Source: a virus
IMG/VR virus record: IMGVR_UViG_3300048580_000710
Location: 1 to 32,261 of that record
Strand: one strand, 5' to 3'
DNA length: 32,261 nt
How positions within the stretch are numbered: the first letter of the stretch is position 1; each line of letters begins with the position of its first letter. Below, in pieces: positions 762-31,667 of this stretch. A model generated the notes under the pieces. The model had not been told where the DNA came from. It saw only the letters and a list, made by a program, of their open reading frames with translations, and made no database searches. The translations under genes were made by a program, and so were the position numbers.

Positions 762-769
762 TATAAATA
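762..769 (-). promoter_or_regulatory. TATTTATA phage-type promoter motif
   Basis: On the leftward strand the sequence reads TATTTATA, 20 nt before the ATG of the GAF-like gene. It belongs to the set of identical motifs placed before other genes in this window. Confidence 0.4.
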
Positions 770-807: not shown

Positions 808-2217
808 ATGGGAAAATATAGGACATATTTTAGTAAAAACAATACATTAGTAAGAAATTCTTATGTTAATACGGCAAGAAATCCAATTGCTGAGTTATAT
901 TATGGGTTTGATCAAAACCAAACAAGGACATATTCAAGATATATTTTTGATATTGATTTAACAAATGTAAATAATTTATACACAGGTAAAACATTTACAT
1001 CTTTAAATAATACAACCCATAAATTAAAAATGAAGAATTGTTCTTCATTTGATGAGTTATTTGGTGAAACAGTTGGTTCGTATAAAACAAGAGGTAATTC
1101 ATTCGATTTAATCCTATTTAAGATTTCGGGTGATACTTGGGATCAGGGTATAGGTTATGATTACGCCGATTATAAAACAGAAAGTTTAATAAGAGATCCT
1201 TTTGTTTATACAGAAACACCTTCGAATTGGTATTATAATAAGACTAATTCTTCTTGGAGTTATCCTGGTGTGTATTCAACCCCTGAAATAATTGCAACAC
1301 AACATTTTGATTTAGGTAATGAAGATTTAGATATTGACATTTCAAGTGAAATAAATAATAGATTACAAAATAAAATATTTAGTGGTGTGAGTTATGGTAT
1401 TGCCTTTACAACATCATTAGAAAACATACCATATTCAGCAACCACATTTGACGCCTCATTACAATATGTGGGATTTTTTTCTAAATACACCCAAACATTC
1501 TATCAACCTTATTTAGAAACTGTATATGACGATTTAATTCAAGATGATAGAAACTTTTTTTATAAAGGTAAGACGAATAATTTATTTCTTTACGTAAATA
1601 AAGGTGGTATTCCAACTAATTTAGATTATTCACCTATTTGTAGGATATATGATGGAAATGGAAATATATTTTCAGCATTTACTGGAACTCAAAAAACAAT
1701 TGGGGTGTATTATATTAGTATGATTATACCCGATTCATACCCATACGATTCTATATTATTTAACGATGTTTGGAGTAATTTATCAATTGGTGGCGTGTTA
1801 AAATCAAATGTTACATTAGATTTTGAGGTTAAATGTGATGAATATTATTCAATAGGTACAGGGGAATATTTACCAAAAGAATATGGTTTATCATTTAGCG
1901 GCTTAAAACGTGATGAAGTTGTTCGTAAAGGTGAAAAAAGAAAAATAATAATAAGTGTGAGAGAACCTTACGTATATGAAGTTCCGGTTTTAACTGATTT
2001 TGTTCAGTATAAAATATACGTGAAAGAAGGTCCATTAAACGAAATACTTGTTCAGGATTGGACTAATGTAAATAGAACAGCTAATATGAATTATTTTATT
2101 TTAGATAGTAATTGGTTATTACCTAATAAGTACTATTTAGATATAAGAGTAAGTTCAAACCAAGAAATAAGGGAATATAAAGAAATAACTCAGTTTTTTA
2201 TAAGACAAGAATTATAA
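808..2217 (+). CDS. Putative virion (tail/fibre-associated) structural protein
   Basis: A 469-aa protein rich in Tyr, Asn, Ser and Thr, with no signal peptide, membrane segment or enzyme motif that I recognise. Aromatic beta-type sequence runs through its whole length. The N-terminal part (NPIAELYYG, then SRYIFDIDL near residue 45) recalls beta-sandwich domains that cap or link fibres, but I cannot name a family. It is first in a rightward run of fibre genes with small gaps (20 nt to the next ATG), preceded by a TATTTATA motif. Position and composition make a tail, baseplate-periphery or fibre-attachment protein the most likely role. The gene call is firm; the function is inferred from context. 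Confidence 0.75.
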   Translation: MGKYRTYFSKNNTLVRNSYVNTARNPIAELYYGFDQNQTRTYSRYIFDIDLTNVNNLYTGKTFTSLNNTTHKLKMKNCSSFDELFGETVGSYKTRGNSFDLILFKISGDTWDQGIGYDYADYKTESLIRDPFVYTETPSNWYYNKTNSSWSYPGVYSTPEIIATQHFDLGNEDLDIDISSEINNRLQNKIFSGVSYGIAFTTSLENIPYSATTFDASLQYVGFFSKYTQTFYQPYLETVYDDLIQDDRNFFYKGKTNNLFLYVNKGGIPTNLDYSPICRIYDGNGNIFSAFTGTQKTIGVYYISMIIPDSYPYDSILFNDVWSNLSIGGVLKSNVTLDFEVKCDEYYSIGTGEYLPKEYGLSFSGLKRDEVVRKGEKRKIIISVREPYVYEVPVLTDFVQYKIYVKEGPLNEILVQDWTNVNRTANMNYFILDSNWLLPNKYYLDIRVSSNQEIREYKEITQFFIRQEL

Positions 2218-2237: not shown

Positions 2238-4073
2238 ATGTCAAGTTTAAATAATAATTTTATAAATAATACCTTTAAATCGTTACTTAAATTAATAAAT
2301 AACGATTCATTTACAGGTAATACCACACAAACAATAAGTGATGGGTATGGAAATTCATTACCATTGTCAATATCACCAACAAGTGTGGATATTAATGCGA
2401 ATTTAACTGCAAATAAAATTGTAATTGGTAGTGGGAATACATCAGGAGATAATTCATCTGTTTTAGGTGGGTTAAATAATAACTCATCAGGTAGTTTTTC
2501 AATAATAGGCGGTGGGGAAAATAATACTAACACCAGAGAATACTCATCAATATTAGGTGGGGAAAATAATAGAATTAAAGACTCTTATTCTTCAATCGGT
2601 GGTGGGGAAAATAATACTATTTCCGGCACACTTTCATCAATTGTTGGTGGGGAAAATAATTACACCGATAAATCTAATTCATTTATTATAGGTTCTAATA
2701 TTACCGCAACAACTAATAATACAACATTTGTTAATAATTTAAGTATTGATGGTGTATTGTATGATATAACATCAAATTCAGGTAACACAGGACAAATATT
2801 AAGTGTTGGAATAAATGGTGTGTTATGGACAACCGTTGATGTGTCAGCATTAACAGGTGACTCTATAAATAAACAAACATTTTATCAATATACTTCAGAT
2901 ACCCAAACCAAATTAAATAGTAAATTAAATATATCTGATTTTAGTAGTTATTCGGCAAATACTAACACATTAATTGGAACTAAATTAAATATATCTGATT
3001 TTAGTAGTTATTCGGCGAATACTAACACATTAATTGGAACTAAATTAAATATATCTGATTTTAATTCATATAGTTCAAATACTTTAAACTATATAAATAA
3101 CACATTAAGTGCGTCTACAATATATAACTCAGTTTTAACCCCCTCATTATCTATGCCATCATCTGTTGGTGGTATATCAGCAGGAACTACCGTAAGTCAA
3201 TTAACTGGTTTAACATTTAGTAAAATATTCGATGATTTATTTTTCCCAACCACTTATCCGACATATACAATACCAACAATTACTATTGGGGGTGTTGCTA
3301 ATACAACATCTGAGGTTGGTTCAACTATAACCCCATCAATCGCAGTAAGTGCAGTTAAAAACGATGCGGGTGTTTATTCTTTATTAAGAATACTTCGTAA
3401 TGGAAGTTCAATTTATAGTTCATCACCAACACCATCATGGGTGACTGCAATACCAAATCAATTTGGTTATGTAAATCCAAATAACCCAAATTCAGGTTTT
3501 ACAATAAGTACCTACTCTGAAAGTTATGTTATACCAGCACCTTCTGTTGGAGGGACTTCATCATCAACCATATATAAATCAGACGGTGATTATAATATAG
3601 GGCTAGCAAAACCAACAAATAAAAATACCACAGATAATAGAAGTTTTGCCGTTAGATCAACATCAGCACCTCAATCAGCGTCAAATAATTTTGAATCGTC
3701 CCCATATACTTACACAGGTATTTATCCATATTTTTATGGAACATCCGCCACACTACCAACATCAGCAACAATAGCTCATGCAATATCAGGCGGGACAGCA
3801 ACGAAAGTTTTATCGTCAGCATCTGGGACTATATCTATACCATATAACACATCAGGTAATTATATTTGGGTGGCATATTTTAATAATTACACAACAAAAA
3901 CAAAATGGTATATAAGCGATTTAAATAGTGGTAGTATAAATAATAGTTTTATTACAACAGCCGCATCACAAATAATAAAAAGTCCTGATGGTTATTGGGA
4001 TGGTATCACATATAAATTACATTGGAGTGTAAACGCTACGGTAGTTAATACTCTTGAATATAGAAATAGTTAA
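2238..4073 (+). CDS. Tail fibre/adhesin with YadA-head-like repeats
   Basis: A 611-aa protein. Residues about 70-155 contain five 15-residue repeats of the type S-x-I-(I/L)-GGG-x-N-N-x-x-x-G, the left-handed beta-roll pattern of trimeric adhesin (YadA/Hia) heads. A linker containing NTTFVNNL and TGQILS follows, then three copies of a 20-residue module with LNISDFSSYSANT (225-290) encoded by a 60-bp tandem DNA repeat. Residues 300-611 form a distinct Ser/Thr/Tyr-rich beta domain, starting FDDLFFPTTYPTY and probably the receptor-binding tip. The protein is expected to trimerise. It shares modules at protein and DNA level with the next gene, 11 nt downstream. No separate fibre chaperone is seen. 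Confidence 0.85.
   Translation: MSSLNNNFINNTFKSLLKLINNDSFTGNTTQTISDGYGNSLPLSISPTSVDINANLTANKIVIGSGNTSGDNSSVLGGLNNNSSGSFSIIGGGENNTNTREYSSILGGENNRIKDSYSSIGGGENNTISGTLSSIVGGENNYTDKSNSFIIGSNITATTNNTTFVNNLSIDGVLYDITSNSGNTGQILSVGINGVLWTTVDVSALTGDSINKQTFYQYTSDTQTKLNSKLNISDFSSYSANTNTLIGTKLNISDFSSYSANTNTLIGTKLNISDFNSYSSNTLNYINNTLSASTIYNSVLTPSLSMPSSVGGISAGTTVSQLTGLTFSKIFDDLFFPTTYPTYTIPTITIGGVANTTSEVGSTITPSIAVSAVKNDAGVYSLLRILRNGSSIYSSSPTPSWVTAIPNQFGYVNPNNPNSGFTISTYSESYVIPAPSVGGTSSSTIYKSDGDYNIGLAKPTNKNTTDNRSFAVRSTSAPQSASNNFESSPYTYTGIYPYFYGTSATLPTSATIAHAISGGTATKVLSSASGTISIPYNTSGNYIWVAYFNNYTTKTKWYISDLNSGSINNSFITTAASQIIKSPDGYWDGITYKLHWSVNATVVNTLEYRNS
2921..3065 (+). repeat. 60-bp near-perfect tandem repeat inside fibre gene
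   Basis: The blocks 2941-3000 and 3001-3060 are identical except for one A/G difference, and the 20 bp at 2921-2940 match the end of each unit. The unit encodes the LNISDFSSYSANTNTLIGTK spacer, and close variants recur in the next gene (about 4360-4400, 6060-6200, 6270-6320). It is a likely site of slippage and of recombination between the two fibre genes. Confidence 0.9.
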
Positions 4074-4084
4074 AATAAAAAATT

Positions 4085-7000
4085 ATGGCAATAGTTCTTA
4101 ATGACAACATCAACATTAATTCACCTAAAGTTTTGGACAATAGGTATGGTCCATGGAATAGCATAAATGAGGCTAACACAAATATCTTATCATTACAAAG
4201 ACAAAAAGGTTTAACCGTAGGTGTTTTAAACGGTTCTTCCGTTGTTGAATATTGGTATTGTAGTGGTATCACAAATAGCGATTTAATTATTAAATCGCCA
4301 GGTAGTCTTAATGATAAATTAGATTTATCAACATTTTATGTTTACACATCAAACACAAATACATTAATTGGGACTAAATTAAATATAAGTGATTTTAATA
4401 TTTATAGTTCAACAACTAATACTTTATTAGGTAATAAATATGATAAGACAGGTGGTGTTATAACAGGTAATGTAGTAATAACAGGTAGTTTAGTTGTTAA
4501 TGGAACAGCCACAACAATTAATTCACAATCTTTAGCGATATCAAACCCAATTATATTCTTATCATCAGGTGCTACAACACCAATAAGTGATTCTGGTTTC
4601 ATAGTTAAAAGAGGGGTTGATTCAGACGCAGGTGTTCTTTGGATTGAAAACAATGATGAGTTTGTTATTGGTTATACCAATGAAGTTTATACCGGCTCAA
4701 CCGTAAATATCACACAATATGGTAATTTAAGAGTTAATCAAGTTAACCCTAAATATATTAAGGATTCAAATAATAGTACAGGAACAACTATTAATAACAT
4801 TCTATCATCAACATCGTCAGGTATTGTATGGACAAATATTAATAATAAAGTAAATACAAGTGATTTTTATTCATATACTGCATCAACAGAAAATAAATTG
4901 AATTCTAAAGTTATTGAATTGGGTGATGGTGTGAGTTCAACGTTAAGGATTGGATCTGGTGTAGCTAACAATGATAATTCTAGTGTATTAGGTGGAATTA
5001 GTAATGAATCATCTTCAAGATTTGCCACAATATTAAATGGTAAAAATAATACATCGTCAAGTTATTACTACGCAACGGTTTTAAATGGTGAAAGAAATAC
5101 ATCATCCGGCACTAATTCAGTTATAGTTAATGGTTGCTATAATGTAATAAATAGTATGGTTACGACAATTTTAAATGGTTGTAATAATACAACATTTGTT
5201 AATGGGGATTGCTCGACCATTATAAACGGTTGTAATAATTTGGTTAAAGGTGCTTATTATGGATTTATTGGTGGTGGTATTTGTAATACTGTTGATTGTT
5301 GTTATACTACAGTTAGTAATGGTTATTCAAATACTTCATCTGGTGTGTATTCAATTATAGGTAATGGTAAAAATAATGTAATTTTAAGCGATAACTCATT
5401 TATTGGTGGTGGAGCTCAAAATACAATAAGTGCTTATGGTGGGGTTAGTGGAACATTCTCATCAATAAATAATGGATTTAATAATAAAATATATGGTGAT
5501 TATTCATTTATTGGTGCCGGCACCGATAATTTAGTTTCATGTAATTATTCATTTATAGGTGGTGGTTGTCAAAACACAATATCGGGTTGTTTATCAACAA
5601 TAGGTGGTGGTAGTAATAATATAAATTCAGGTGGATATTCATTTATCGGTGGTGGTTTTTGTAACACTAATTCAGGTGGATATTCATTTATCGGTGGTGG
5701 TCAAAATAATATAAATTCAGGTAATAATTCATTTATAGGTGGTGGTAATAATAATATAAATTCATGTAATAATTCATATATAATCGGCACTAATATTATT
5801 AGCGATAAAGATTTTACAACATTTGTAAATAATTTAGATATTGAGTCAAATCTTTACGATTCAACAAATAACTCAGGAACGACAGGTCAAATACTATCAT
5901 CAACTAATACAGGTATTGTATGGACTAGCGATTACATTAATAATAATAGATTTAGTTCTTTTACCGACACTTTTTATGTTTATACGTCAACAACAAATAA
6001 TTTAATCGGCACTAAGTTAAATACTTCAATATTTACAGGTTTTACAAATAGTTTTTATTCATACACTAGTAATACTAACACATTAATTGGAACTAAACTA
6101 AATATATCCGATTTCAATAGTTATTCGGCGAATACAAACACATTAATTGGAACTAAATTAAACACAAGTGATTTTAATTCATATAGTTCAAATACTTTAA
6201 CGAATATAAATAATAATTATAACCAATTCACAGCTTTTACAAATAGTTTTTATTTATACACTAGTAATACTAACACATTAATTGGAACTAAATTAAATAT
6301 AAGTGATTTTAATAGTTATAGTTCAACAACAAAAAATATTTTAGACTCAAAGGTAATTGAGTTAGGTTCAGGTATTAATTCAACAATAAGAATAGGTAAT
6401 AATAATAACGCATCGGGTGATTATTCAACAGTATTTGGTATCAATAATAGGACAAATGGTAATTGTTCATCTATTGGTGGCGGTTGTCTTAATTTAATAA
6501 GTGGTAGTGGTGATAGTAGTTTTTCTATTATTGGTGGCGGTTGTCTTAATTTAATATCAGGATCAACATCAGCTTTCATCGGTGGTGGTAGATGTAATAC
6601 CGTAAATTCAACATATGGTGTTATTGTTGGTGGTATTCTTAACAAAGTATTTAAAAATAATTCATTTGTCGGTGGTGGTTTTCGTAATACAGCGTCAAAT
6701 TATTACTCGACAATAGTTTCCGGTGGTTATAATTCGGCTGATGGTTGCGAATCAACAATTATTGGTGGTTTTTGTAATAAAATATTATCAACATCATTCA
6801 GTTCAACAATATCGGGCGGTTATGGTAATACAACAGTTCTAGATAATTCATTTATAGGTGGTGGTAGATGTAATACCACATCGGGTAGATCAAATGTTAT
6901 TGTCGGTGGTGCAGGTAATAAAATTAGTAATGATTTTTCGTCAGTATTGGGCGGTTTTTGTAACATTATATCAGGACATTCATCAACAATATTAGGTGGG

Positions 7001-7777
7001 ACATTAAATAGAAGCCAATTTAACAATACATTAGTTGGTGGTTCAGGTAATTCCGTTTTAGATAAATCATCTAACGTTAATGGGGGTGTTTTAAATGTTA
7101 TTGGTAATTCATCAACACTTAAAAATGGTTCTTGGAATTGTCTTACATGTGTAATTACATTTAACGGCAATAATTTAAATAATTTTACCACAGGTAATAC
7201 CGTCACTTTTTTAGCATCATCAACGGAAAGAGTTAATACTTCAATAATAAGTAATATAATATTTAACACCGGAACATCATGTACGGAAATTACAGTACCA
7301 ATCTCACCTAGTGATGTTGGTGGTTGCGGATCTATTACAGGTTTAATTAATACATCAACTATTTCGGGTAATAGTAATGGTTGCTACTCAACAATTAGTG
7401 GCGGTATTTTAAATAAAATTAATGGTAATAATTCAGTAATTGGTGGTGGTAATAATAATACGACATTAGGTGATAATTCAGGTATTTTAGGTGGAAGTAA
7501 TAATTTATTAACTAATTCATCCACAAATTCATTTATCATTGGTTCAAATATTACCGGTGATACATCTAACACTACGTTTGTTGATAATTTAAATGTTAAG
7601 ACATTAATATCAACAAATCCGATAACCGTAACCGAACCTGTCACAAATATCGGCACTACCCCAACGAATTATTATGGGGATGGTGGGGTAATATTCTTAT
7701 CACAACCGTCTAAATGGTTAAAGATTAATATTGGAGGTGTTGATTATTTATTTCCTGGGTATATAGAAGGAGTATAA
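4085..7777 (+). CDS. Large tail fibre with two YadA-head-like repeat blocks
   Basis: A 1230-aa protein. The N-terminal part (1-75) looks like a virion-attachment region. Residues about 115-215 contain TGGVITGNVVITGSLVVNG and FIVKRGVDSDAG, a tail-fibre beta domain common in T4-type phages. Beta-roll repeats (S-x-I-x-GGG-x-x-N-x-x-x-G) fill residues about 297-572 and 775-1162, separated by LNISDFNSYS-type spacers. A non-repeat insertion (about 1012-1085) breaks the second block. The C-terminus, ending KWLKINIGGVDYLFPGYIEGV-like, resembles a conserved fibre end. Many repeat positions carry Cys (NGCNN, GGGCQN, GGGRCN), unusual for a beta-roll exposed outside the cell. It is probably the long fibre, trimeric. 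I infer co-transcription with the previous gene. Confidence 0.88.
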   Translation: MAIVLNDNININSPKVLDNRYGPWNSINEANTNILSLQRQKGLTVGVLNGSSVVEYWYCSGITNSDLIIKSPGSLNDKLDLSTFYVYTSNTNTLIGTKLNISDFNIYSSTTNTLLGNKYDKTGGVITGNVVITGSLVVNGTATTINSQSLAISNPIIFLSSGATTPISDSGFIVKRGVDSDAGVLWIENNDEFVIGYTNEVYTGSTVNITQYGNLRVNQVNPKYIKDSNNSTGTTINNILSSTSSGIVWTNINNKVNTSDFYSYTASTENKLNSKVIELGDGVSSTLRIGSGVANNDNSSVLGGISNESSSRFATILNGKNNTSSSYYYATVLNGERNTSSGTNSVIVNGCYNVINSMVTTILNGCNNTTFVNGDCSTIINGCNNLVKGAYYGFIGGGICNTVDCCYTTVSNGYSNTSSGVYSIIGNGKNNVILSDNSFIGGGAQNTISAYGGVSGTFSSINNGFNNKIYGDYSFIGAGTDNLVSCNYSFIGGGCQNTISGCLSTIGGGSNNINSGGYSFIGGGFCNTNSGGYSFIGGGQNNINSGNNSFIGGGNNNINSCNNSYIIGTNIISDKDFTTFVNNLDIESNLYDSTNNSGTTGQILSSTNTGIVWTSDYINNNRFSSFTDTFYVYTSTTNNLIGTKLNTSIFTGFTNSFYSYTSNTNTLIGTKLNISDFNSYSANTNTLIGTKLNTSDFNSYSSNTLTNINNNYNQFTAFTNSFYLYTSNTNTLIGTKLNISDFNSYSSTTKNILDSKVIELGSGINSTIRIGNNNNASGDYSTVFGINNRTNGNCSSIGGGCLNLISGSGDSSFSIIGGGCLNLISGSTSAFIGGGRCNTVNSTYGVIVGGILNKVFKNNSFVGGGFRNTASNYYSTIVSGGYNSADGCESTIIGGFCNKILSTSFSSTISGGYGNTTVLDNSFIGGGRCNTTSGRSNVIVGGAGNKISNDFSSVLGGFCNIISGHSSTILGGTLNRSQFNNTLVGGSGNSVLDKSSNVNGGVLNVIGNSSTLKNGSWNCLTCVITFNGNNLNNFTTGNTVTFLASSTERVNTSIISNIIFNTGTSCTEITVPISPSDVGGCGSITGLINTSTISGNSNGCYSTISGGILNKINGNNSVIGGGNNNTTLGDNSGILGGSNNLLTNSSTNSFIIGSNITGDTSNTTFVDNLNVKTLISTNPITVTEPVTNIGTTPTNYYGDGGVIFLSQPSKWLKINIGGVDYLFPGYIEGV
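4975..5800 (+). repeat. Degenerate ~45-bp beta-roll repeats, block 1
   Basis: Roughly 18 consecutive units of 42-51 bp encode S-x-I-x-GG-x-x-N-x-x-x-G. Several neighbouring units are almost identical in DNA: the segment with tcattta(t)cggtggtggt and aataatataaattca recurs at about 5635-5770, which points to recent unit duplication. Confidence 0.8.
6410..7560 (+). repeat. Degenerate ~45-bp beta-roll repeats, block 2
   Basis: A second array of the same unit type, about 20 copies, interrupted at about 7120-7345 by non-repeat sequence. The units at 6472-6500 and 6532-6560 share a near-identical stretch (ggtggcggttgtcttaattt), again pointing to local duplication. Confidence 0.78.
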
Positions 7778-7814: not shown

Positions 7815-8699
7815 ATGAAAAAATATTCTTTATTCCATATAGAGGGTGGGTTAGGTAAACACGTAGCGGCTACCGCAGTTGCTAAATGTATTAAAAATAA
7901 TCATCCTGACAGGGAACTTTTAGTCGTATGCGCATACCCTGAAATATTTATTAACCTAAATTACGTTAACAAGGTTTTTAGGGTTGGTAACACACCCTAC
8001 TTTTATCAAGATTATATTAAAAATCAAGATACTTTAATATTTAAACACGAACCTTATTTTACGACAGATCATATTAGTGGTAAATCACCTTTAATTCAAA
8101 ATTGGTGTAAATTATACGATTTAAATTATTTAGGGGAACAACCTGAATTAGTTTTTAATGTAAGACAAATACAACATGGGTATAGGAAATGGTCAAGACA
8201 AAAACCGGTTATGATTATTCAAACAAATGGAGGTCCGTTACAACAAGATTTTCCTTATTCTTGGACAAGAGATATTCCATACCCTGTGGCGGAATCATTA
8301 GTAAACTTTTACTCTAATGATTATCATATAATACAAGTATGTAGACACGAAGATAATAAAATTTCAGGTTGTGAACATGTGATAGAGCCAATGTCAAACA
8401 TGGAATTATTTTCATTGTTATTGGTAAGTCAAAAAAGAATTTTAATTGATAGTTGCTTACAACACGCAGCCGCTGCGTTAAATAAAAAATCAACAGTGTT
8501 ATGGGTTGGTACATCACCTAGATTATTTGGGTATGATGTTCATGATAACTTTACAGCGGTTATTGACGATAATATTAAATTACCTGATAGTTATTTATTT
8601 GATTTTAGTTTTAATGGGGTATTACATGAATGTCCATTAATGGATTTTAATATTTTCGATATGGATTCAATAATTCACTCAATAAATAATCAACAATAA
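7815..8699 (+). CDS. Glycosyltransferase family 9-like (heptosyltransferase-like) protein
   Basis: A 294-aa protein, slightly short for GT9 enzymes. The N-terminus has the GGLGKHVAATAVAK loop (11-24) of the first Rossmann half. The C-terminal half carries the hallmark LIDSCLQHAAAAL (210-222; D212, H217) followed by VLWVGTSP, matching the nucleotide-sugar binding D-S-x-x-x-H-x-A-A pattern. It has no signal peptide, so it acts in the cytoplasm. Donor and acceptor cannot be read from the sequence. The stop overlaps the start of the sulfotransferase by one base (TAATG), and the gene lies between fibre genes. This suggests modification of virion proteins or of a host surface glycan. Family assignment is good; substrate is unknown. 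Confidence 0.8.
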   Translation: MKKYSLFHIEGGLGKHVAATAVAKCIKNNHPDRELLVVCAYPEIFINLNYVNKVFRVGNTPYFYQDYIKNQDTLIFKHEPYFTTDHISGKSPLIQNWCKLYDLNYLGEQPELVFNVRQIQHGYRKWSRQKPVMIIQTNGGPLQQDFPYSWTRDIPYPVAESLVNFYSNDYHIIQVCRHEDNKISGCEHVIEPMSNMELFSLLLVSQKRILIDSCLQHAAAALNKKSTVLWVGTSPRLFGYDVHDNFTAVIDDNIKLPDSYLFDFSFNGVLHECPLMDFNIFDMDSIIHSINNQQ

Positions 8700-9517
8700 T
8701 GGTAGAAAAAATATTCTTTCAAAGTAGTTTATGTAGAAGTGGTTCAACACTTCTTCAAAATATCATAGGACAAAACCCTGATTTTTATGTTACACCAACA
8801 TCAGGTGTATTAGAATTAGTATACGCAGCAAGAGCCAATTACACTAATTCACCAGAATTTAAAGCCCAAGATAGTGATTTAATGAAAAGGGGATTCGCAG
8901 CTTTTTGTAAGGGTGGTATTGATAGTTATTTTAACACAATAACCGATAAAAAATATGTAATGGACAAATCTAGAGGTTGGGGTATTCATTATGGGTTTCT
9001 AAATTCGTTTTATCCCGAACCAAAAGTTATTTGTATGATAAGAGATCCGAGATCAATATACGCATCAATGGAAAAAAACTTTAGGAAAAATCAACATTTA
9101 GATTCAGGTATTGTAGATCACGCACAAATGCAAGGGACAACAACTGAAAAAAGAATTGATATTTGGACACAAGGACAACCAGTAGGGTTAGCCTTAGAAA
9201 GATTATACCAAATAATTAGGGAGGGTATTAATAAAAAAATGTTGTTTGTTAAGTTTGAGGATTTATGTAGGCAACCAGATATTGAAATGAGAAGAATATA
9301 CACATATTTAGACTTACCATATTATCAACATGACTTTAATAATGTTGAACAAATAACTCAGGAAGATGATGCTATCTATGGTATATATGGTGATCACACA
9401 ATAAAACCTAAATTAGAACCACAAAAAAATGACTATAAAGATGTTTTAGGTGTAAACGCATCTAATTGGATTCGACAAAATTTTTCTTGGTTTTACGATG
9501 AATTTAAATATATCTAA
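8699..9517 (+). CDS. Sulfotransferase family protein
   Basis: A 272-aa protein, the usual length for PAPS-dependent sulfotransferases. Residues 6-20 hold the 5'-phosphosulfate loop (FFQSSLCRSGSTLLQ). Residues 109-124 hold the 3'-phosphate motif (KVICMIRDPRSIYASM; R115, D116, P117, S119). MDKSRGW (88-94) and the C-terminal WFYDEF also fit the family. It should transfer sulfate from PAPS to a hydroxyl or amine of a glycan or protein in the cytoplasm. It overlaps the glycosyltransferase gene by one base and is followed by a strong terminator, so the two enzymes likely work together on one acceptor. Phage sulfotransferases are known from other T4-type phages; the acceptor here is unknown. Confidence 0.87.
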   Translation: MVEKIFFQSSLCRSGSTLLQNIIGQNPDFYVTPTSGVLELVYAARANYTNSPEFKAQDSDLMKRGFAAFCKGGIDSYFNTITDKKYVMDKSRGWGIHYGFLNSFYPEPKVICMIRDPRSIYASMEKNFRKNQHLDSGIVDHAQMQGTTTEKRIDIWTQGQPVGLALERLYQIIREGINKKMLFVKFEDLCRQPDIEMRRIYTYLDLPYYQHDFNNVEQITQEDDAIYGIYGDHTIKPKLEPQKNDYKDVLGVNASNWIRQNFSWFYDEFKYI

Positions 9518-9522
9518 TAAAT

Positions 9523-9547
9523 AACCCACTAAATGTGGGTTTTTTTA
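9523..9547 (+). terminator. Rho-independent terminator
   Basis: Stem AACCCAC/GTGGGTT with loop TAAAT and a T7 tail, directly after the sulfotransferase stop. Confidence 0.85.
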
Positions 9548-9559
9548 TTTTAAATAAAG

Positions 9560-9899: not shown

Positions 9900-12440
9900 A
9901 TGGGTATAAGGGTTTTAGAGACAGGTAATAATTACATTACAATACAAGAAGCTATTGATGGAACATTGGGTGGGGTTGGCTTAACCCAAGACTTAACAAT
10001 CCAAATAGACGGTGGGACGTATTATGAAAATTTAACGTTTAATGGGTTGACGCATAAAACTAGTGGTAATACTTTAACATTAATTAACTCACCAGCACAA
10101 ACAGTTATTTTAAATGGCTCCGGTGTGTCTAATAATAATATCTATATACTAAACGTAAGTAATTTAGTTTTTGATGGTATAAATGCAGAAAATTGTAATC
10201 CTGAAGATACAGGTGGTGCGAATGTTAGGATTTTGGGAACCACAGGTACTTGGGGTTTGACTGATAATATTACTTTTAAAAATTCAACTATTAGGACAGG
10301 ATATGCTGCGGTTAGATGTACTGACTATGTAAGAAATGTTACGTTTCAAAATATAACAACATCTAATTGTAGGTATGGAACATATCGTTTTGGAAAACAG
10401 CAGGTTGATTTACAAAACGTTAATTTTATTAATTGTAATATTACGACAGATGGATTACAAAATTCAGGTGCGAATCAATTCCAATTAAAAGGTATTGATG
10501 GTTTAAATATTATACGATGTAGGGTTGATGGTTCTGAAAAAATAATATTATCGCCTTGGTATTGTGATAATGTTTTAATTGATGGTTGTATTTTTGATAG
10601 ATCAGGTATTTTAAGTACTACCGGTAGACATATTTTGTTTGAGGATAGTTGTGATAATTGGGTGATTCAAAATTGTTTATTTACTAATTGTAGTCGCAAT
10701 TCCCCAATATATGGGACAAATATAACCAATTTAACGTTAAGAAATAATACGTTTATTGATGATTCGGCAAGTAAAACTGAATACTTTTTTTTAAGTAATA
10801 TTAATGGGTTTAAAACATATAATAATATATTTTTAGTTAATGGTGCTGGTACAATTGGATTTATCAGAATATCTAATTCAACCGGTAATACGATAGGGAA
10901 TAAATTCATTACTCAAAATAACATTTACCAATTTAAAAATGGTAGTCAAAGAAACATATATAACGGTACGTCGGGTGGTGTTACATTACCATCAGGTAGT
11001 GTTTCAAACGCTCAAAGTTCCGGATTAGAAATAAGTTCATTACAAGGTATATCAACAGGTAATTATTTAGGGTTTACAGATACAACTAATAATGATTATA
11101 CGTTACAAGAAAGTTCGCCAGCTAGAAATTACGCTTTATTAAGTCAAATACCTACTAAAGATATTAGAAATTATACTAGGGATATACAATCATCAGATGT
11201 TGGTGCATATGATATGAATGGTATTGCACCTATACTACCGGAATCAATTTTAACGGTATCGGTAAATGGGGTTGTTAAAACAAGTTCGTTTGGAGTCCCT
11301 GAAAACACTCAAGTTACTTTTGGGAATAACAGTACTAATGCAATTACCACTGTTTTTGAAATATTAAATTCATCTAATACAGTTATAGGTTCATCATCAT
11401 CATTTCCATACGTCTATACTTTCACTACAATAGGTAGATATAGGTTAAGAATGATATCCACAAATAACGATGGTTCCGACACATTAGATTTAATTAATTA
11501 TGTAACTGTTGATGTATTACCTACACCAATATTTACAATTTTAAATCAACCCAGATTAATTAATGGTGAAAACGCTACGTTTACAATAACAGATTCTTCG
11601 TTAAGTGGAACAACGTCAGGTGGTGGAATTACTAGTAAAGTTTGGGATGTTGTTGACGGATCCAATAATAGTTATTACCAATCAACAAACACCCCATTTG
11701 TTATTAGCGGATCAACATTATTACAAGGAAGTTACGGTGTTAAATTAACGGTTAGTAATATTATCGGTTCTGCATCATCCACATTAAATAACTCAATATA
11801 TGTAAATAGAACCCCAACAATTATTAACAACATACCTAATCAAGTTGGGACGAGAAATAATATATTTAATTACACAATACCTAATAATATATTTAGTGAT
11901 AGTGGTGATACTTTAACATACTCATTAGTATCCAACCCATCGTGGTTATCGTTAAATAATATGGTATTAAGTGGAACGCCAATAACGGCAGGATCAACAA
12001 GTGCGACTATAAGAGCTACAGATAGTAGAAATCTTTATAACCAAACATCATTTGGTATTAATATTGGTAGTGGTGAGCCACCAGTCGTAGTTAATCAACC
12101 AGCAAATAAAGGTATTCCTGTCGGAATGCAATTTTATTTTAAAATACAAGAATCCATATTTTATTCACCCGCACCATTTACAATTAGTATAATACAAAAA
12201 CCAAACTGGGTGGATTATATTTCATCAGAATTATTATTAGTTGGAGAACCAACAATAAATGATGTGGGTATTAATTATATTACAATAAGGGCTGACGATG
12301 GATTTACCCAAGCGGACTGTACGTTTACTGTAGATGTATTTAATTTTAATCAAATTAGTTCTATTAATAATGGGGATTCTAATCAAGGTATTAGAGGTAA
12401 ATTAAATAACTTAATTACTTTTATAAATAAACTAAGATAA
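9900..12440 (+). CDS. Beta-helix plus Ig-like tail fibre / receptor-binding protein
   Basis: An 846-aa protein. Residues about 1-430 have the pattern of a right-handed parallel beta-helix (repeated N-x-x-x-x-N-x-I/F and FxNCxI steps; TIQIDGGTYYENL at the start, SSDVGAYDMNG at the end), as in pectate-lyase-like tailspikes. Residues about 440-640 look like two PKD/Ig-like sandwiches. About 642-730 is a putative-Ig/cadherin-like domain (FSDSGDTLTYSL, WLSL, LSGTP). A similar fourth domain covers 735-820. The last 25 residues form an amphipathic helix. No catalytic residues can be assigned, so glycan hydrolysis or lyase activity is possible but unproven. Probably a receptor-binding or glycan-degrading fibre. 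Confidence 0.82.
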   Translation: MGIRVLETGNNYITIQEAIDGTLGGVGLTQDLTIQIDGGTYYENLTFNGLTHKTSGNTLTLINSPAQTVILNGSGVSNNNIYILNVSNLVFDGINAENCNPEDTGGANVRILGTTGTWGLTDNITFKNSTIRTGYAAVRCTDYVRNVTFQNITTSNCRYGTYRFGKQQVDLQNVNFINCNITTDGLQNSGANQFQLKGIDGLNIIRCRVDGSEKIILSPWYCDNVLIDGCIFDRSGILSTTGRHILFEDSCDNWVIQNCLFTNCSRNSPIYGTNITNLTLRNNTFIDDSASKTEYFFLSNINGFKTYNNIFLVNGAGTIGFIRISNSTGNTIGNKFITQNNIYQFKNGSQRNIYNGTSGGVTLPSGSVSNAQSSGLEISSLQGISTGNYLGFTDTTNNDYTLQESSPARNYALLSQIPTKDIRNYTRDIQSSDVGAYDMNGIAPILPESILTVSVNGVVKTSSFGVPENTQVTFGNNSTNAITTVFEILNSSNTVIGSSSSFPYVYTFTTIGRYRLRMISTNNDGSDTLDLINYVTVDVLPTPIFTILNQPRLINGENATFTITDSSLSGTTSGGGITSKVWDVVDGSNNSYYQSTNTPFVISGSTLLQGSYGVKLTVSNIIGSASSTLNNSIYVNRTPTIINNIPNQVGTRNNIFNYTIPNNIFSDSGDTLTYSLVSNPSWLSLNNMVLSGTPITAGSTSATIRATDSRNLYNQTSFGINIGSGEPPVVVNQPANKGIPVGMQFYFKIQESIFYSPAPFTISIIQKPNWVDYISSELLLVGEPTINDVGINYITIRADDGFTQADCTFTVDVFNFNQISSINNGDSNQGIRGKLNNLITFINKLR

Positions 12441-16589: not shown

Positions 16590-16673
16590 ATTGTATTTTA
16601 TATTCCATTTAATTTATTAATTGATAAAATGATAAGTATTTTTAGGTAAAATAACAAATTTTGTTTTCCTTTA

Positions 16674-16681
16674 TATTTATA
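16674..16681 (+). promoter_or_regulatory. TATTTATA phage-type promoter motif
   Basis: TATTTATA ends 3 nt before ATG at 16685. It lies at the start of the protease-scaffold-capsid run and just after a leftward gene, so a promoter is needed here. Confidence 0.55.
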
Positions 16682-16684
16682 TGT

Positions 16685-17386
16685 ATGACAAAATACATTG
16701 ATTACTCTAAATTAAGAGTTCTTAAAGAGAATGAAGAAGGTTTTGGTATTATTATCGACAATACTGGTTATATTGACCCTAAGATTGAACGTAATTCTAG
16801 GTTAGTAGAATCTTACTCAATCGAACAAGATAAAGATATTATATTATACGCAATTCTTCAAAAATACGATACGGAAAATAAAAATGGTAGAATATACCCT
16901 GAGAAGGTATTAAAGGCTAACGTAGAGAAGTATCAAAAGGTTATTGATCAACATAGAGCCATATCGGAATTAAATCACCCTGAAACATCAATTATTGACT
17001 TAGAAAGAGTTTCACATGAGATTATTGAAACTTGGTGGGAAGGAAAAGAATTGTGGGGTAAATTAAAGATTTTAACTTCACCAGGGTTTAAGAAATATGG
17101 TTATGTAGGTAATTACGCACCTGATATAGCGGCAAATCTTTTATTACATGGAATTACAATCGGTATTTCATCAAGAGGTATTGGTTCATTAAAAAAAGAA
17201 GGTAATAAAAATATCGTTCAATCGGATTTTGAGTTAATTTGTTTTGACTTGGTTTCACAACCATCAACACCCGGAGCGTATTTATTTGCCGATCAATCTC
17301 TGAGTAAAGTTTATACTGAAAACATCAATAAGAATACAATAATTTCTGAAGATATAATAAAATCAATCGATAATTTCTTAATCTAA
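16685..17386 (+). CDS. 21: Prohead core protease, T4 gp21-like
   Basis: A 233-aa serine protease of the herpesvirus-assemblin/T4 gp21 type. The catalytic histidine is visible in SELNHPE (H98) and the nucleophile region in GISSRG (S162/S163), with DFELICFDLVSQPS downstream. It cleaves scaffold and capsid precursors after Glu in (L/I)-x-E sites during head maturation. I start it at the ATG at 16685; the frame can be extended upstream to a TTG at 16661, but that reads through the promoter motif. It is followed by a one-base overlap (TAATG) with a small basic protein and then by other head genes. Length is close to T4 gp21 (212 aa). Confidence 0.93.
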   Translation: MTKYIDYSKLRVLKENEEGFGIIIDNTGYIDPKIERNSRLVESYSIEQDKDIILYAILQKYDTENKNGRIYPEKVLKANVEKYQKVIDQHRAISELNHPETSIIDLERVSHEIIETWWEGKELWGKLKILTSPGFKKYGYVGNYAPDIAANLLLHGITIGISSRGIGSLKKEGNKNIVQSDFELICFDLVSQPSTPGAYLFADQSLSKVYTENINKNTIISEDIIKSIDNFLI

Positions 17387-20023: not shown

Positions 20024-21886
20024 ATGAGTAGTTTTTTATTAAAATCTGGTGAAGTAGGAAACATCGGATTAAAACAAATGAAACTTGTAAGAGAGCAAAC
20101 TATCCAAAAATGGGATAGAATGGGTTTTCTTGAAGGTTTAGATGGTCACACTAAAGATAATGTGGCTCAATTATTCGAAAATCAAGCATCGTTTTTAATT
20201 AACGAAGCAACTGCAACAGATTCGGCAGGTTCTTTCGAAACAGTGGTATTCCCTATCATTAGAAGGGTATTCTCAAAATTATTAGCTAACGAAATCGTTT
20301 CAGTTCAAGCGTTGAACATGCCGATTGGTAGAATTTTCTACTTCGTTCCTAAAATTTCTGAAAGAGTAAATCTTGGTGGTGGTGTGTTTGGTCATTCAAA
20401 TCCTTTTGGTTATCCAAATCCAGGAACAGGTGCTCAAGATACAACAACTTTCCAAACAACAAACTTGTATGATTCTTACTATGATTCAACATCTGGTTTA
20501 GATAACAACCAATTATTTGATAGATCTAAAGGTGCTTACCAAGAATTTACTTCTAACACAAATTCAGGTTTGAGACAAGTTACATTAACTACATTGTCAG
20601 CTGGTACTTCGGTATTCACTACGGTAGCTTCTAACTTAGCAACAGGTTGTACTAGATACGTAACTTTAGAAGTAACAGGTTTTACTTCAGGCGGTGCCGG
20701 TAAAATTATCGGACCAAATGGTAATGAAATGGATTCAGAAGAATTCTTAGCTTCTTTCCAAATCTTAAATAACACTAACTTATTCTGTTGTTCAGGTTCT
20801 ACAGGTGGTGTAGGTTCAGGTGCTGGACCAACTTTATCATATGCAGCTAACAACCCAATTGAATTTAGAGTTGTAACTCAAAAATATTCAAGACAAATCG
20901 TTGATTACTGGAAACAAGTACAAGGTACTTTAGGTGGACAAACAGTTCAATCATCAGCTCAAGACCTTTGTTCAGCAAACGGTTTAATGTATGTTGAAGT
21001 AGATTTAAGTTGCCCAGCAGCTATTAATTCTGATTCAGTAGATGGTTATGTTGGTACATATTTACCAGGTAATGCAGGTGAAACTATTTCTAAGTTTTAT
21101 GCTAAATGGAGACAATATAGAGAATTAGAATTTGAAGCAGCTTTAGGTGAAGTTTCTTTCGAATTAGATTCAGTAACAATCTCTGTAACAGAAAGAAAAT
21201 TAAGAGCACAATGGTCTCCTGAAATGGCTCAAGACGTAAGTGCATTCCATAACATTGACGCAGAAGCTGAATTAACAGCTATTTTATCTGAAGAAATCGC
21301 AGCAGAAATCGATAGAGAAATCTTGAGAGATTTAAGAAAAGCAGCAGCTTGGAGATTAAGATGGGATTGGAACGGTTGGAAGAGATTCGCAGCAGGTCAA
21401 GCACCATACACTCAAAAAGACTGGAACCAAACATTGATTACAGCAATCAATCAAATTTCAGCTCAAATCTTCAAATCAACTTTAAGAGGTGGTGCTAATT
21501 GGATAGTTTGTTCAGCTGAAGTTTCAGCAATCTTTGATGATTTACAATACTTCCACGTTTCAAACGCTAACCCTGAAGAAGATCAATACAATATGGGTAT
21601 TGAAAAGATTGGAACTCTTCAAGGAAGATACAAAGTGTATAGAGATCCATACTTCCCAGCTAACAAAATTTTGATTGGACACAAAGGTTCATCAATGTTA
21701 GATACTGGTTATGTATACGCTCCATACGTTCCATTACAATTAACTCCAACTATGTATAATCCGTTTACATTCGCTCCGATTAAGGGGATAATGACGAGAT
21801 ACGCGACTAAGGTGTTGAATAACAGGTTCTACGGTGTAATTACTGTTGACGGTGTAAGAACATTTAACATTGCTGAATTAAGATAA
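20024..21886 (+). CDS. 23: Major capsid protein, T4 gp23-like
   Basis: A 620-aa HK97-fold capsid precursor, longer than T4 gp23 (521 aa). Family segments are visible: FPIIRRVFSKLLANEIVSVQ near 73-92, an LDSVTISVTERKLRAQWSPE-type region with AQDVSAFHNIDAEAELTAIL near 385-425, and a C-terminal YKVYRDPYFPANKILIGHKG. A gp21-type cleavage site LINE|A lies at E61, close to the T4 site at E65, so the first 61 residues are probably removed. A Gly/Thr/Ser-rich insertion (about 155-310) accounts for the extra length. Codons are less AT-biased (many TTC, AAC, GCT) than in neighbours, fitting high expression. It is 34 nt after the scaffold gene without terminator between, and a strong terminator follows. 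Confidence 0.96.
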   Translation: MSSFLLKSGEVGNIGLKQMKLVREQTIQKWDRMGFLEGLDGHTKDNVAQLFENQASFLINEATATDSAGSFETVVFPIIRRVFSKLLANEIVSVQALNMPIGRIFYFVPKISERVNLGGGVFGHSNPFGYPNPGTGAQDTTTFQTTNLYDSYYDSTSGLDNNQLFDRSKGAYQEFTSNTNSGLRQVTLTTLSAGTSVFTTVASNLATGCTRYVTLEVTGFTSGGAGKIIGPNGNEMDSEEFLASFQILNNTNLFCCSGSTGGVGSGAGPTLSYAANNPIEFRVVTQKYSRQIVDYWKQVQGTLGGQTVQSSAQDLCSANGLMYVEVDLSCPAAINSDSVDGYVGTYLPGNAGETISKFYAKWRQYRELEFEAALGEVSFELDSVTISVTERKLRAQWSPEMAQDVSAFHNIDAEAELTAILSEEIAAEIDREILRDLRKAAAWRLRWDWNGWKRFAAGQAPYTQKDWNQTLITAINQISAQIFKSTLRGGANWIVCSAEVSAIFDDLQYFHVSNANPEEDQYNMGIEKIGTLQGRYKVYRDPYFPANKILIGHKGSSMLDTGYVYAPYVPLQLTPTMYNPFTFAPIKGIMTRYATKVLNNRFYGVITVDGVRTFNIAELR

Positions 21887-22035: not shown

Positions 22036-23676
22036 ATGGAAAAGATTGATATTGAAAACTATTATAAGGAACATTCTTTCGAAGAAACTGCACTATATTT
22101 TAAAATAGGTAAGAAGAAATTAACTAACTACTTCGAACTTTTTAATATACCTAAAAAAACAAAAGGTGGTCAAAATAGATTGATTAAAAAGTATGATTTA
22201 AACGATAGATGGGATTATTATAATAATCAAATAACAGAAACTACTAAAATAAATAATGTTTGTAAAAAAACAGGTAAAGTATTAAATGATTGGTATAATG
22301 AAGGTGGTTATTTAAGTAGACATTTAAAAACTTTAAATATTGAAGTTCCTAATTTAAACGAAAGAAGAAAGTTTCAAATGGAAACTGGGTTATTATGGTG
22401 GGAACAACATTTTGATTATATTATAGAAAATTTTGAGGTGACTAAGTGTAGGTTATGTGATTTTACAAGTATGGGTACGAATAATTCTAGTGGTATTATG
22501 ACTAAACATATATCAGAATACCATAATAAATCCATATCTGATTATATAACACAATTCCCTAGTGAAGAAAAATTATGGTATAATAAGATAAAAAGAAGTG
22601 AAAAATTATCTAACGATAATTCACGTATATTATGTTTTGAGTGTAATGAATATTTTTACGGATTAACGGAAACTCATTTAAAGAGTGAACATGGAATGTC
22701 AATTAATAGTTATAAGAAAAAATGGGATACCAATATAATCTTTTCAAATGATACTGTGGGAAAATTATCCCAACAAGCCATAGAAATAAATAAAACTTCA
22801 CCAAATCATTTTACTTCCAAACCACAAATAGAATTGGGTGATTTTATTCAAAATGAACTTAAATTATCAATCATTTATAATGATAAGAAAAGTCTAAACG
22901 GTGTTGAGATAGACATACTTATACCTTCTAAAAATATCGGTATAGAGTATAATGGATTATTTTGGCATTCAGAAAAAATGGGTAAACATAAAACATATCA
23001 TCTAAATAAAACAGAGTTGTGTGAAAAAAATAATATTAAACTAATACATATTTTTGAAGATGAGTGGATGGATAAATCCGAAATCGTTAAAAACAGGATG
23101 AGACATATTTTAGGTTGTAATAAAAATAAACTATACGCTAGGAATTGTATTATAAAACAGATTGACAATAAATCTAAGAATATTTATTTAAATAAAAATC
23201 ACTTACAAGGTTCGGATAAATCAAGTATTTTATTGGGTGCGTTCCATGATGATAATTTAGTATCTGTCATGACATTTTCAAAACCTAGAAAATCTTTAGG
23301 TTATACCAATAAAAATGATGAAACCTATGAAATGGTTAGATTCGCTACTGATGGTGTAACCGGAATATCTAGTAAATTATTAAGTCATTTCATTAAAACT
23401 TATAAACCTAAAAAAATAATAACATATGCAGATAGGAGATGGAGTCAAGGTAATCTATATTTAAAAATGGGGTTTAAATTTATTGATTACACTAAACCAA
23501 ATTATTTTTATACTTTAAAATATAAAAATAGGGAGAATAGATTTAACTATCGTAAGGATATATTAGTTAATGAAGGATTTGATCCATCATTAACTGAAAC
23601 TGAAATTATGTATAATCGAGGATATGACAAAATATGGGATTGTGGTTCTTTAAAATTCGAATTAATTATTAACTAA
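22036..23676 (+). CDS. Vsr-like (EDxHD-type) homing endonuclease with zinc fingers and GNAT-like domain
   Basis: A 546-aa composite protein. Residues 1-45 look like a helix-turn-helix. Zinc finger 1 uses C138, C141, H158, H163. Finger 2 uses C200, C203, H214, H219 and resembles MucR/Ros fingers (CFECNEYF, then SEHGMSINSYKKKW). The nuclease core covers about 264-345: V-E291-I-D293-I-L-I-P, IGIE304-YNGLFWHSE, Y-H322-L, HIFEDEW, as in Vsr/EDxHD homing enzymes. Residues about 385-510 form a GNAT-like domain (VSVMTFSKPR, YEMVRFATD, ITYADRRWSQGNLYLKMGF), similar to the Mom-type domain found in some phage proteins. It is a free-standing gene with its own host-type promoter and terminator, inserted after the capsid gene. 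Its target is probably a related phage genome. Confidence 0.85.
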   Translation: MEKIDIENYYKEHSFEETALYFKIGKKKLTNYFELFNIPKKTKGGQNRLIKKYDLNDRWDYYNNQITETTKINNVCKKTGKVLNDWYNEGGYLSRHLKTLNIEVPNLNERRKFQMETGLLWWEQHFDYIIENFEVTKCRLCDFTSMGTNNSSGIMTKHISEYHNKSISDYITQFPSEEKLWYNKIKRSEKLSNDNSRILCFECNEYFYGLTETHLKSEHGMSINSYKKKWDTNIIFSNDTVGKLSQQAIEINKTSPNHFTSKPQIELGDFIQNELKLSIIYNDKKSLNGVEIDILIPSKNIGIEYNGLFWHSEKMGKHKTYHLNKTELCEKNNIKLIHIFEDEWMDKSEIVKNRMRHILGCNKNKLYARNCIIKQIDNKSKNIYLNKNHLQGSDKSSILLGAFHDDNLVSVMTFSKPRKSLGYTNKNDETYEMVRFATDGVTGISSKLLSHFIKTYKPKKIITYADRRWSQGNLYLKMGFKFIDYTKPNYFYTLKYKNRENRFNYRKDILVNEGFDPSLTETEIMYNRGYDKIWDCGSLKFELIIN

Positions 23677-30767: not shown

Positions 30768-31667
30768 TTATATATTTTGGTTCGTAAGCACAATGCCTAC
30801 AGTTGTTAGAACACTATATTTAAATGTATAACCTAAATATGATTTTCTCCTACCTTTTAGACAATGATTTACGTTGGATACACTACCCTTAATGTAGTCG
30901 GCAACTTCTTTTTGGTTACTAAATATGGTAATAAATACCCCATTTTTATAAAGTTTTATTGGTATAATTAAACATTTTTTATTACTTATCGTAATACTAT
31001 CATTATTTTTGTAATACCCCCAATAAAAACCATAACTAAATGTTTTATTTTTTATCGCATTTGTTAAACAAGATGGGTGTTTAATATTATTTTTTTTAGC
31101 AGCATCTTTTATAGATTGATAGGATTCAATAAAACCACCATATTCATCATATTTAGCAACTCTTTTACTCACTTTTCTTACTTTATTTATTTTCATCGGA
31201 AAATTATTACCGTATGAGAATACATATCCTTGAGATTTATTATATTTACCGATACAATTCCTATATATACCTCCAGCATCTAATTTTAATTCTCTAGCAC
31301 ATTCCCTAATGCTTTTATATTCCTTAATAAAATCACCGTTTAACTTAAAGGTGAATACTTTTTTAGAGCTTCTATAATTAATAAAACCTTTACCACCTGG
31401 AGTTAAATTAAACCCATTATCAGTATGAAAAGATTTATACTCATTAATATAATATTTCTCTAAAAAATCAGCCGTTTCTTGGTTATCCACCTCATCAATA
31501 ATAGTAAAATCATAATTATTAATATTAGAATCCTCATTTAAGAGAAAATTATCGTGTTTTTTATTTTTTATTTTCCTCTTATGGTAAGAAAATCTTTCTT
31601 TCATCTCAATTGTTTGACCAATATAATTTTTACCTGATATGTGATTTATTTTATAAATATAATGCAT
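30768..31667 (-). CDS. GIY-YIG homing endonuclease with three NUMOD1-like repeats
   Basis: A 299-aa protein. The GIY-YIG domain is at 1-95: YIYKI (3-7), NYIGQT (14-19), R25, E70 in DFLEKYY, and GFNLTPGGKG. Three DNA-binding modules of NUMOD1/IENR1 type follow (about 101-150, 165-215, 230-285), each starting with K/R-x-(F/Y)-(D/L/N)-x-x-G-x-F-I and containing a S-x-(R/K)-x-A-A-like helix. The last 15 residues are an odd hydrophobic tail. It is free-standing inside a leftward baseplate cluster. TATTTATT lies 3 nt before ATG, so unlike the other endonuclease it uses the phage-type motif. Confidence 0.92.
   Translation of the reverse strand: MHYIYKINHISGKNYIGQTIEMKERFSYHKRKIKNKKHDNFLLNEDSNINNYDFTIIDEVDNQETADFLEKYYINEYKSFHTDNGFNLTPGGKGFINYRSSKKVFTFKLNGDFIKEYKSIRECARELKLDAGGIYRNCIGKYNKSQGYVFSYGNNFPMKINKVRKVSKRVAKYDEYGGFIESYQSIKDAAKKNNIKHPSCLTNAIKNKTFSYGFYWGYYKNNDSITISNKKCLIIPIKLYKNGVFITIFSNQKEVADYIKGSVSNVNHCLKGRRKSYLGYTFKYSVLTTVGIVLTNQNI

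Follow-up and report, generated by a model that had tools for sequence, protein, structure and literature searches.

A coupled glycosyltransferase-sulfotransferase gene pair in a T4-like phage as a candidate module for decoration of the neighboring repeat fibre

Here, we analyzed a gene pair within a 32,261-base fragment of a virus record (hereafter, the window, i.e., the whole stretch of DNA under analysis), which comes from a T4-like phage as indicated by its gp23-type capsid and gp21-type prohead protease (Table 1). The pair encodes a GT9-like glycosyltransferase (GT) and a PAPS-dependent sulfotransferase (ST), the genes of which share a single base within the sequence TAATG: the GT stop codon TAA spans 8697-8699 and the ST start codon ATG spans 8699-8701, in agreement with the one-base TAATG overlap noted in a preliminary description of this locus. 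This arrangement likely couples translation of the two enzymes. The preliminary description further considered the two genes to be fused, which holds with respect to the coupling but not to the products, given that the stop codon separates the open reading frames (ORFs); accordingly, a bifunctional GT-ST fusion was rejected. The terminator attributed to the pair is indeed found, in the form of a stem-loop followed by a T-run (minimum free energy -12.5 kcal/mol, z -2.8).

Table 1. Features of the locus and reference genes in the window
Feature	Position	Strand	Basis
TATAAATA, T4-type late-promoter-like box, candidate operon promoter	762..769	+	Precedes the 469-aa gene
469-aa protein, encoded first in the presumed late operon	808..2217	+	No family match
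611-aa fibre, possible second substrate	2238..4073	+	Repeat/coil segments in common with the 1230-aa protein
1230-aa repeat fibre, proposed substrate	4085..7777	+	GGGxxN beta-roll repeats, 32 motif hits
GT9-like (GT-B fold) glycosyltransferase gene (GT), 294 aa	7815..8699	+	ORF, AF2 model, dN/dS
TAATG stop/start overlap, one base	8697..8701	+	Sequence; -1 overlap also in 22 distinct relatives
PAPS-dependent sulfotransferase gene (ST), 272 aa	8699..9517	+	Pfam, AF2 model, invariant columns
Intrinsic-terminator-like hairpin and T-run, closes the operon	9523..9548	+	
846-aa beta-helix and PKD fibre, downstream of ST	9900..12440	+	Pfam Beta_helix 1e-7, PKD 8e-5
gp21-type prohead protease	16661-17386		Basis for T4-like assignment
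gp23-type capsid	20024-21886		Basis for T4-like assignment

Only 37 bp separate the stop codon of the 1230-aa repeat fibre from the GT start, and on the 3′ side the pair is followed by a 107-aa ORF and then by the 846-aa ORF. Thus, the placement between two fibre groups that was originally claimed stands for the 611-aa and 1230-aa proteins upstream and the 846-aa protein downstream, but not for the 469-aa and 107-aa proteins, in which no fibre signature was detected; our proposal does not depend on the 846-aa protein. The T4 late-promoter core TATAAATA is found at 30 sites in the window against 15 expected, a number that none of 100 dinucleotide shuffles reached, and the site at position 762 is the nearest non-coding T4-late-like box upstream of the pair on this strand. 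This layout would fit a single late transcript encompassing the genes for the 469-, 611-, and 1230-aa proteins, GT and ST. Comparison with three close relatives indicates strong purifying selection on both enzyme genes (dN/dS 0.07-0.14; 0.08-0.14 for GT). Elsewhere in the window, there are two homing-endonuclease-like genes (22036-23676 and 30768-31667; PHROG 3339/559 and 314/7168, respectively), one of which sits directly after the major capsid gene.

The assignment of GT comes from structure. Its AlphaFold (AF2) model (pLDDT 93.9) matches the GT9 protein of V. parvula (3tov, Z 22.6), WaaF (1psw, 20.4), TibC (4rap, 19.5 over 261 residues), WaaC (Z ~19) and the GT9-fold subunits of the NDH-PSI complex (Z ~17), with everything else at Z of 10.9 or below, so that the predicted fold belongs with the GT9/heptosyltransferase GT-B proteins, far above other GT-B folds. 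The sequence comparisons fell short of this: the Pfam GT9 profile (PF01075) yields 12.8 bits, under the gathering cut-off of 22, the GT family profile found no match among PDB sequences, where only the structure search succeeded, and no NCBIfam model, including TIGR04414, matches the window GT, which places it outside the TibC/AAH (BAHT) family by sequence. Across 49 relatives, the invariant positions are G11-G12-x-G14-K15, D212-S213, and H217, and the invariant polar residues of the pocket are Y64, R152, D153, D212, S213, and H217; the D-S-x-x-x-H element resembles the nucleotide-binding motif of GT9 enzymes. The catalytic residue of TibC is Asp110 (PMC4358343). In the hhalign alignment (GLGK/CLGD), K15 occupies this catalytic Asp site of TibC and WaaC and is invariant in the 49 sequences. 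Because the Asp base is replaced by an invariant lysine, the mechanism or even the activity of GT is uncertain, and we call the protein GT9-like rather than a GT9 heptosyltransferase; the latter identification, which agrees with the fold but neither with the Pfam cut-off nor with the catalytic Asp, was not adopted. The GT9-like label of the preliminary description therefore holds at the level of the fold (Z ~20-22 to GT9 proteins) but not at that of the Pfam threshold or the catalytic residue. Glycosyltransferase activity is thus a prediction from comparison.

By contrast with the sub-threshold score of GT, the PAPS-sulfotransferase motifs noted earlier in the second ORF are borne out by Pfam: Sulfotransfer_3 scores 72.8 bits (cut-off 27; 6e-20) and Sulfotransfer_1 scores 40.2 bits (cut-off 22). 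The AF2 model of ST (pLDDT 91.5) is closest to the tyrosylprotein sulfotransferases (Z 18.6-19.5), with the heparan 3-OSTs at Z ~14, whereas its closest NCBIfam model, far below the cut-off, is NoeE, a sugar sulfotransferase acting on Nod factors; in a phmmer search, TPST1 ranks first (E 0.0016). Residues R13, G15, S16, and T17 as well as R115 and S123 are invariant in 44-45 relatives, including those only 25% identical, and by family analogy would represent the PAPS 5′ loop and the 3′ phosphate-binding site, respectively. The second ORF thus reads as a clear PAPS-type sulfotransferase, with a predicted acceptor. Codon 12 of the window ST (8732-8734) encodes Cys, whereas Pro occupies this position of the LPR(A/S)GST loop in nearly all relatives.

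The association of the two genes extends across related phages. ST is present, usually adjacent, in 71 of the 80 IMG/VR loci fetched by GT alone, and lies within three genes of 92 of the 100 distinct GTs from both searches, a set that includes ST-fetched loci. Of 49 junctions at which GT and ST directly adjoin in distinct relatives, 22 have exactly the same one-base overlap, and the distance matrices of the two proteins are correlated (r 0.51, compared with at most 0.33 in 1000 permutations). In marine Kyanoviridae-like contigs, where GT is 53-57% identical, ST belongs to another subfamily (~25% identity) and is located upstream of GT, so the pairing survived both replacement and re-ordering. 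Two representatives carry a SET-domain protein between GT and ST (L130:4908-5294).

These loci are also linked to fibre genes. The 1230-aa protein contains 171 Ser, 139 Thr, 193 Asn, and 52 Tyr, many of the latter within the repeat units, and shares 56% identity over 226 aa with the 611-aa protein. It aligns with the repeat fibres of the relatives, which combine LbR beta-roll domains with Peptidase_S74, the S74 intramolecular chaperone. We quantified proximity in ten long contigs and the window (1543 ORFs), counting as fibre-like any ORF of at least 300 aa with at least 36% S+T+N+G. For 11 of the 12 GT/ST clusters, a fibre-like gene is found no more than 1.5 kb away, with a median distance of 41 bp (the effective n is below 12 because the contigs are related to one another), compared with 2.6 of 12 clusters and ~7 kb under the null; none of 2000 random placements reached the observed value, and the outcome was unchanged at the stricter thresholds of 40 and 44%. 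Proximity of the APS kinase or BAHT genes alone was weak (p_count ~0.1-0.3, n 4-6). The possibility, raised in the preliminary description, that the pair is not conserved next to fibre genes is at odds with this survey, in which it is both conserved and fibre-linked.

Two close relatives (G004 and G006) each have two separate fibre loci with modification enzymes: in one, a repeat fibre is followed by GT-ST, and in the other, another repeat fibre is followed by (ST)-APS kinase-nucleotidyltransferase-DUF2061. In G004, a second, divergent sulfotransferase follows another repeat fibre on the same contig (L160:337-1155, G004:C1:32526-33344). Long genes rich in Ser, Thr, Asn, and Gly are also located close by in a marine lineage (G012) but lack the GGGxxN repeat, so this repeat cannot be the sole substrate. 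A ~106-aa protein, DUF7936/PHROG 7802 (L028:9604-9921 and an 18-member cluster, c5), is often encoded between the fibre and GT and is possibly a fibre accessory.

Related cassettes encode further enzymes; these partners, the APS kinase and the TibC homologue among them, are features of the relatives, and none was found in the 32-kb window. In 8 representatives, the genes upstream of GT encode a GT8 enzyme and, directly before GT, a heptosyltransferase of the TibC-like type (c6). The c6 proteins match TIGR04414 (E 3e-33) and TibC (PDB 4rap, E 4e-63), retain the catalytic LGD throughout, and, in most members, the CxxC...C...C iron-finger cysteines; G006 also has a TibC-like heptosyltransferase, 35 kb away. 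Because the hhalign comparison between GT and c6 is weak (probability 13%), their relatedness rests on the fold. In some relatives, GT and ST are separated by a gene for a GT25 enzyme, and in eight marine representatives (c9; L034:10529-12211 and other loci) GT is directly followed by a NodU/Nol-like O-carbamoyltransferase, for which NodU is the best NCBIfam match, far below the cut-off. Of 70 representatives, 22 carry an APS-kinase-like gene, most often right after ST and in 13 cases two genes after GT, consistent with a role in supplying PAPS. Beside phage sulfotransferases, small APS-kinase-like (c3), 136-aa NMN-adenylyltransferase-like (c4), and DUF2061 genes recur as a block (L007:8921-10004; L009:11706-13031). 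We tried c4, which adjoins the APS kinase, as a mini ATP sulfurylase and rejected this candidate, given that it matches NMN adenylyltransferases instead. The 230-aa PHROG 10255 matches c3 with its N-terminal part and c4 with its C-terminal part and thus looks like a fusion of both, so that c3 and c4 probably act together; the c3-c4-DUF2061 block is a possible minimal PAPS- or nucleotide-making unit.

A parallel arrangement is found on bacterial chromosomes. When the GT profile was searched against 84,980 species genomes, 49 loci were recovered, nearly all in Bacteroidota MAGs, in which a GGGxxN repeat protein of 400-1300 aa, often followed by an NHL-repeat protein with a T9SS sorting domain, precedes GT, the latter standing alone or fused to an FkbM methyltransferase and followed, in about a third of the loci, by ST; some bacterial members of the GT family have no ST nearby. 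Loci of the type repeat protein, T9SS NHL protein, GT(-FkbM), and ST include L250:4692-12483, L238:4912-12514, and ~27 others among L236-L284, and Bacteroidota genomes contain up to three GT copies each; the element that carries them may be a plasmid, an ICE, or chromosomal. Among the 36 loci with at least 2 kb of upstream sequence, 29 have the repeat protein upstream of GT on the same strand within 5 kb. In a survey of one family (246 genomes), GT was found in 9 genomes, the repeat protein in 6, and both in 5, in all of which the two genes share a contig (hypergeometric p ~1e-7, or 2e-6 once the centre genome is omitted); an order-level survey of 199 genomes recovered only the centre genome and adds little. 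Because 29 of 36 loci and 5 of 6 genomes link the repeat protein to GT, it is this protein, rather than host LPS, that is the likely substrate, and the Bacteroidota linkage is the strongest argument to this effect.

Taken together, these genomic associations, indirect as they are, lead us to favor, as the more probable explanation, that GT and ST form a fibre-decoration module that places a sulfated sugar on the neighboring repeat fibre. The two enzymes would be late products of the operon that also encodes the repeat fibres, with the coupled start keeping them in step, and would act in the cytoplasm of the infected cell on newly made GGGxxN beta-roll fibre. GT would use a nucleotide-sugar to glycosylate hydroxyl groups of the fibre, most likely those of Ser or Thr, with acceptor residues repeating along the strand-loop-strand surface; ST would then sulfate that sugar with PAPS as the donor or, with lower probability, a tyrosine of the fibre itself. 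Trimeric fibres assembled into virions would, accordingly, be negatively charged, sulfated (polyanionic) glycoproteins, and the relatives would elaborate the product with a TibC-like heptosyltransferase, GT8, GT25, an O-carbamoyltransferase, and an APS kinase providing PAPS, or, in the bacteria, with the FkbM methyltransferase. The benefit might lie in charge shielding, stability, protection from proteases, or the masking or tuning of receptor binding; the evidence speaks to the target of the modification and not to its benefit. As a tentative generalization, held with somewhat more reservation than assent, aquatic phages and Bacteroidota may share a hitherto unrecognized modular system in which a GT9-like enzyme using Lys in place of the GT9 Asp and ST build a sulfated glycan on GGGxxN proteins, with optional TibC-like, GT8, GT25, carbamoyl-, methyl- and PAPS-making enzymes. 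The GGGxxN targets would be tail fibres in the phages and, presumably, surface or secreted repeat proteins in the bacteria.

Between the two targets envisaged in the preliminary description, the fibres are clearly favored over a host glycan by the linkage in both phages and Bacteroidota. That the pair instead alters a surface glycan of the host (LPS, capsule, or exopolysaccharide) late in infection, blocking superinfection or the sticking of progeny to debris, would accord with the classical action of GT9 enzymes on LPS, with the carbohydrate substrates of the NoeE-like and carbamoyltransferase relatives, and with the serotype-changing glycosyltransferases of temperate phages mentioned in one report (PMC12619734). 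We nevertheless regard it as unlikely: it predicts neither the tight linkage to fibre genes nor that between GT and the repeat protein in Bacteroidota chromosomes, nor does it predict a TibC-type protein heptosyltransferase in the cassette, and it sits poorly with a late-type operon in a T4-like phage. A pair modifying host LPS would have no reason to accompany the repeat protein in phages and bacteria alike and is disfavored on this ground. In Pfam scans of representatives of the main clustered neighbors, no gtrA/gtrB-type membrane or flippase partner was seen next to the pair, the only membrane proteins being those of DUF2061. DNA hypermodification by GT was also considered and set aside, given that the neighbors are late fibre genes rather than genes of DNA metabolism and that neither enzyme has a match among DNA-modifying families.

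Other alternatives retain the fibre as the target or question the role of GT. Because the nearest solved structures to ST are protein-tyrosine sulfotransferases, the sulfate may go to tyrosine, in which case ST would sulfate fibre tyrosines directly in a TPST-like manner and GT would glycosylate other residues as a parallel modification. The lead of the tyrosylprotein enzymes over the carbohydrate 3-OSTs in the structure search, the first rank of TPST1 in phmmer, and the tyrosines within the repeat units all point this way, but similarity of fold does not fix the acceptor, the NCBIfam match is to NoeE, and the coupling of ST to GT, and to the carbamoyltransferase in marine relatives, suggests tailoring of a sugar, so that direct tyrosine sulfation appears improbable to us. 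Still less credible is the notion that the GT9-like protein has ceased to be a glycosyltransferase and has become a scaffold or targeting subunit that assists ST. The lysine at the TibC/WaaC Asp position in 49 of 49 relatives and the precedent of the NDH-PSI supercomplex, which has GT9-fold subunits devoid of a glycosyltransferase role, are compatible with such a loss; however, the pocket retains other invariant polar residues under strong purifying selection, and some bacterial GTs of the family stand without a nearby ST.

Phage genomes repeatedly carry sulfotransferases, the function of which was called unclear in 2023 (PMC10580990), and a literature search that covered few subscription papers found no earlier report of a phage GT-sulfotransferase fibre cassette. 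The fibre-decoration proposal names a concrete substrate for these enzymes, the neighboring beta-roll repeat fibre, and provides a complete logic that includes the supply of PAPS and alternative tailoring enzymes. If it is right, phages change the chemistry of their receptor-binding fibres post-translationally, with a cassette shared with the repeat-protein loci of Bacteroidota. The consequences would extend to host range, adsorption, and resistance, all of which are predicted from fibre sequences alone.

Parallels to parts of the cassette exist in several known systems. Nod factors are secreted lipo-oligosaccharides of rhizobia, and their tailoring by NoeE and NodU resembles the present case in combining a sulfotransferase with, in the marine relatives, an O-carbamoyltransferase, albeit with matches far below the cut-offs, whereas the phage genes sit with fibres. 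TPST1/2 represent the nearest solved fold to ST (Z ~19) but share only ~15% identity with it, and a peptide acceptor for ST is putative. Glycosylation of mycobacteriophage virions is established (Freeman et al. 2023, as cited in PMC12619734 and PMC10568470) and likewise involves phage-encoded glycosyltransferases modifying phage structural proteins; there, however, the glycans are reported on the C-termini of the capsid and tail tube proteins, and the text consulted mentions neither a sulfotransferase nor an APS kinase or a beta-roll repeat fibre. A parallel in gene arrangement is provided by TibC/AAH, the bacterial autotransporter heptosyltransferases (BAHT), and their adhesins TibA and AIDA-I, in which TibC heptosylates Ser of strand-loop-strand adhesins (PMC4358343). 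As in that system, the window GT gene adjoins a gene for a long, repetitive, Ser-rich, beta-structured surface protein and encodes a GT9-related fold, and true TibC-like homologues are found in the same cassettes of related phages. In contrast to TibC, the window GT has neither the catalytic Asp nor a counterpart of the N-terminal beta-barrel (residues 1-97 of TibC), and its aligned region is devoid of the iron-finger cysteines; moreover, the proposed substrate belongs to a phage tail, as a fibre protein, and the pathway includes a sulfotransferase in addition.
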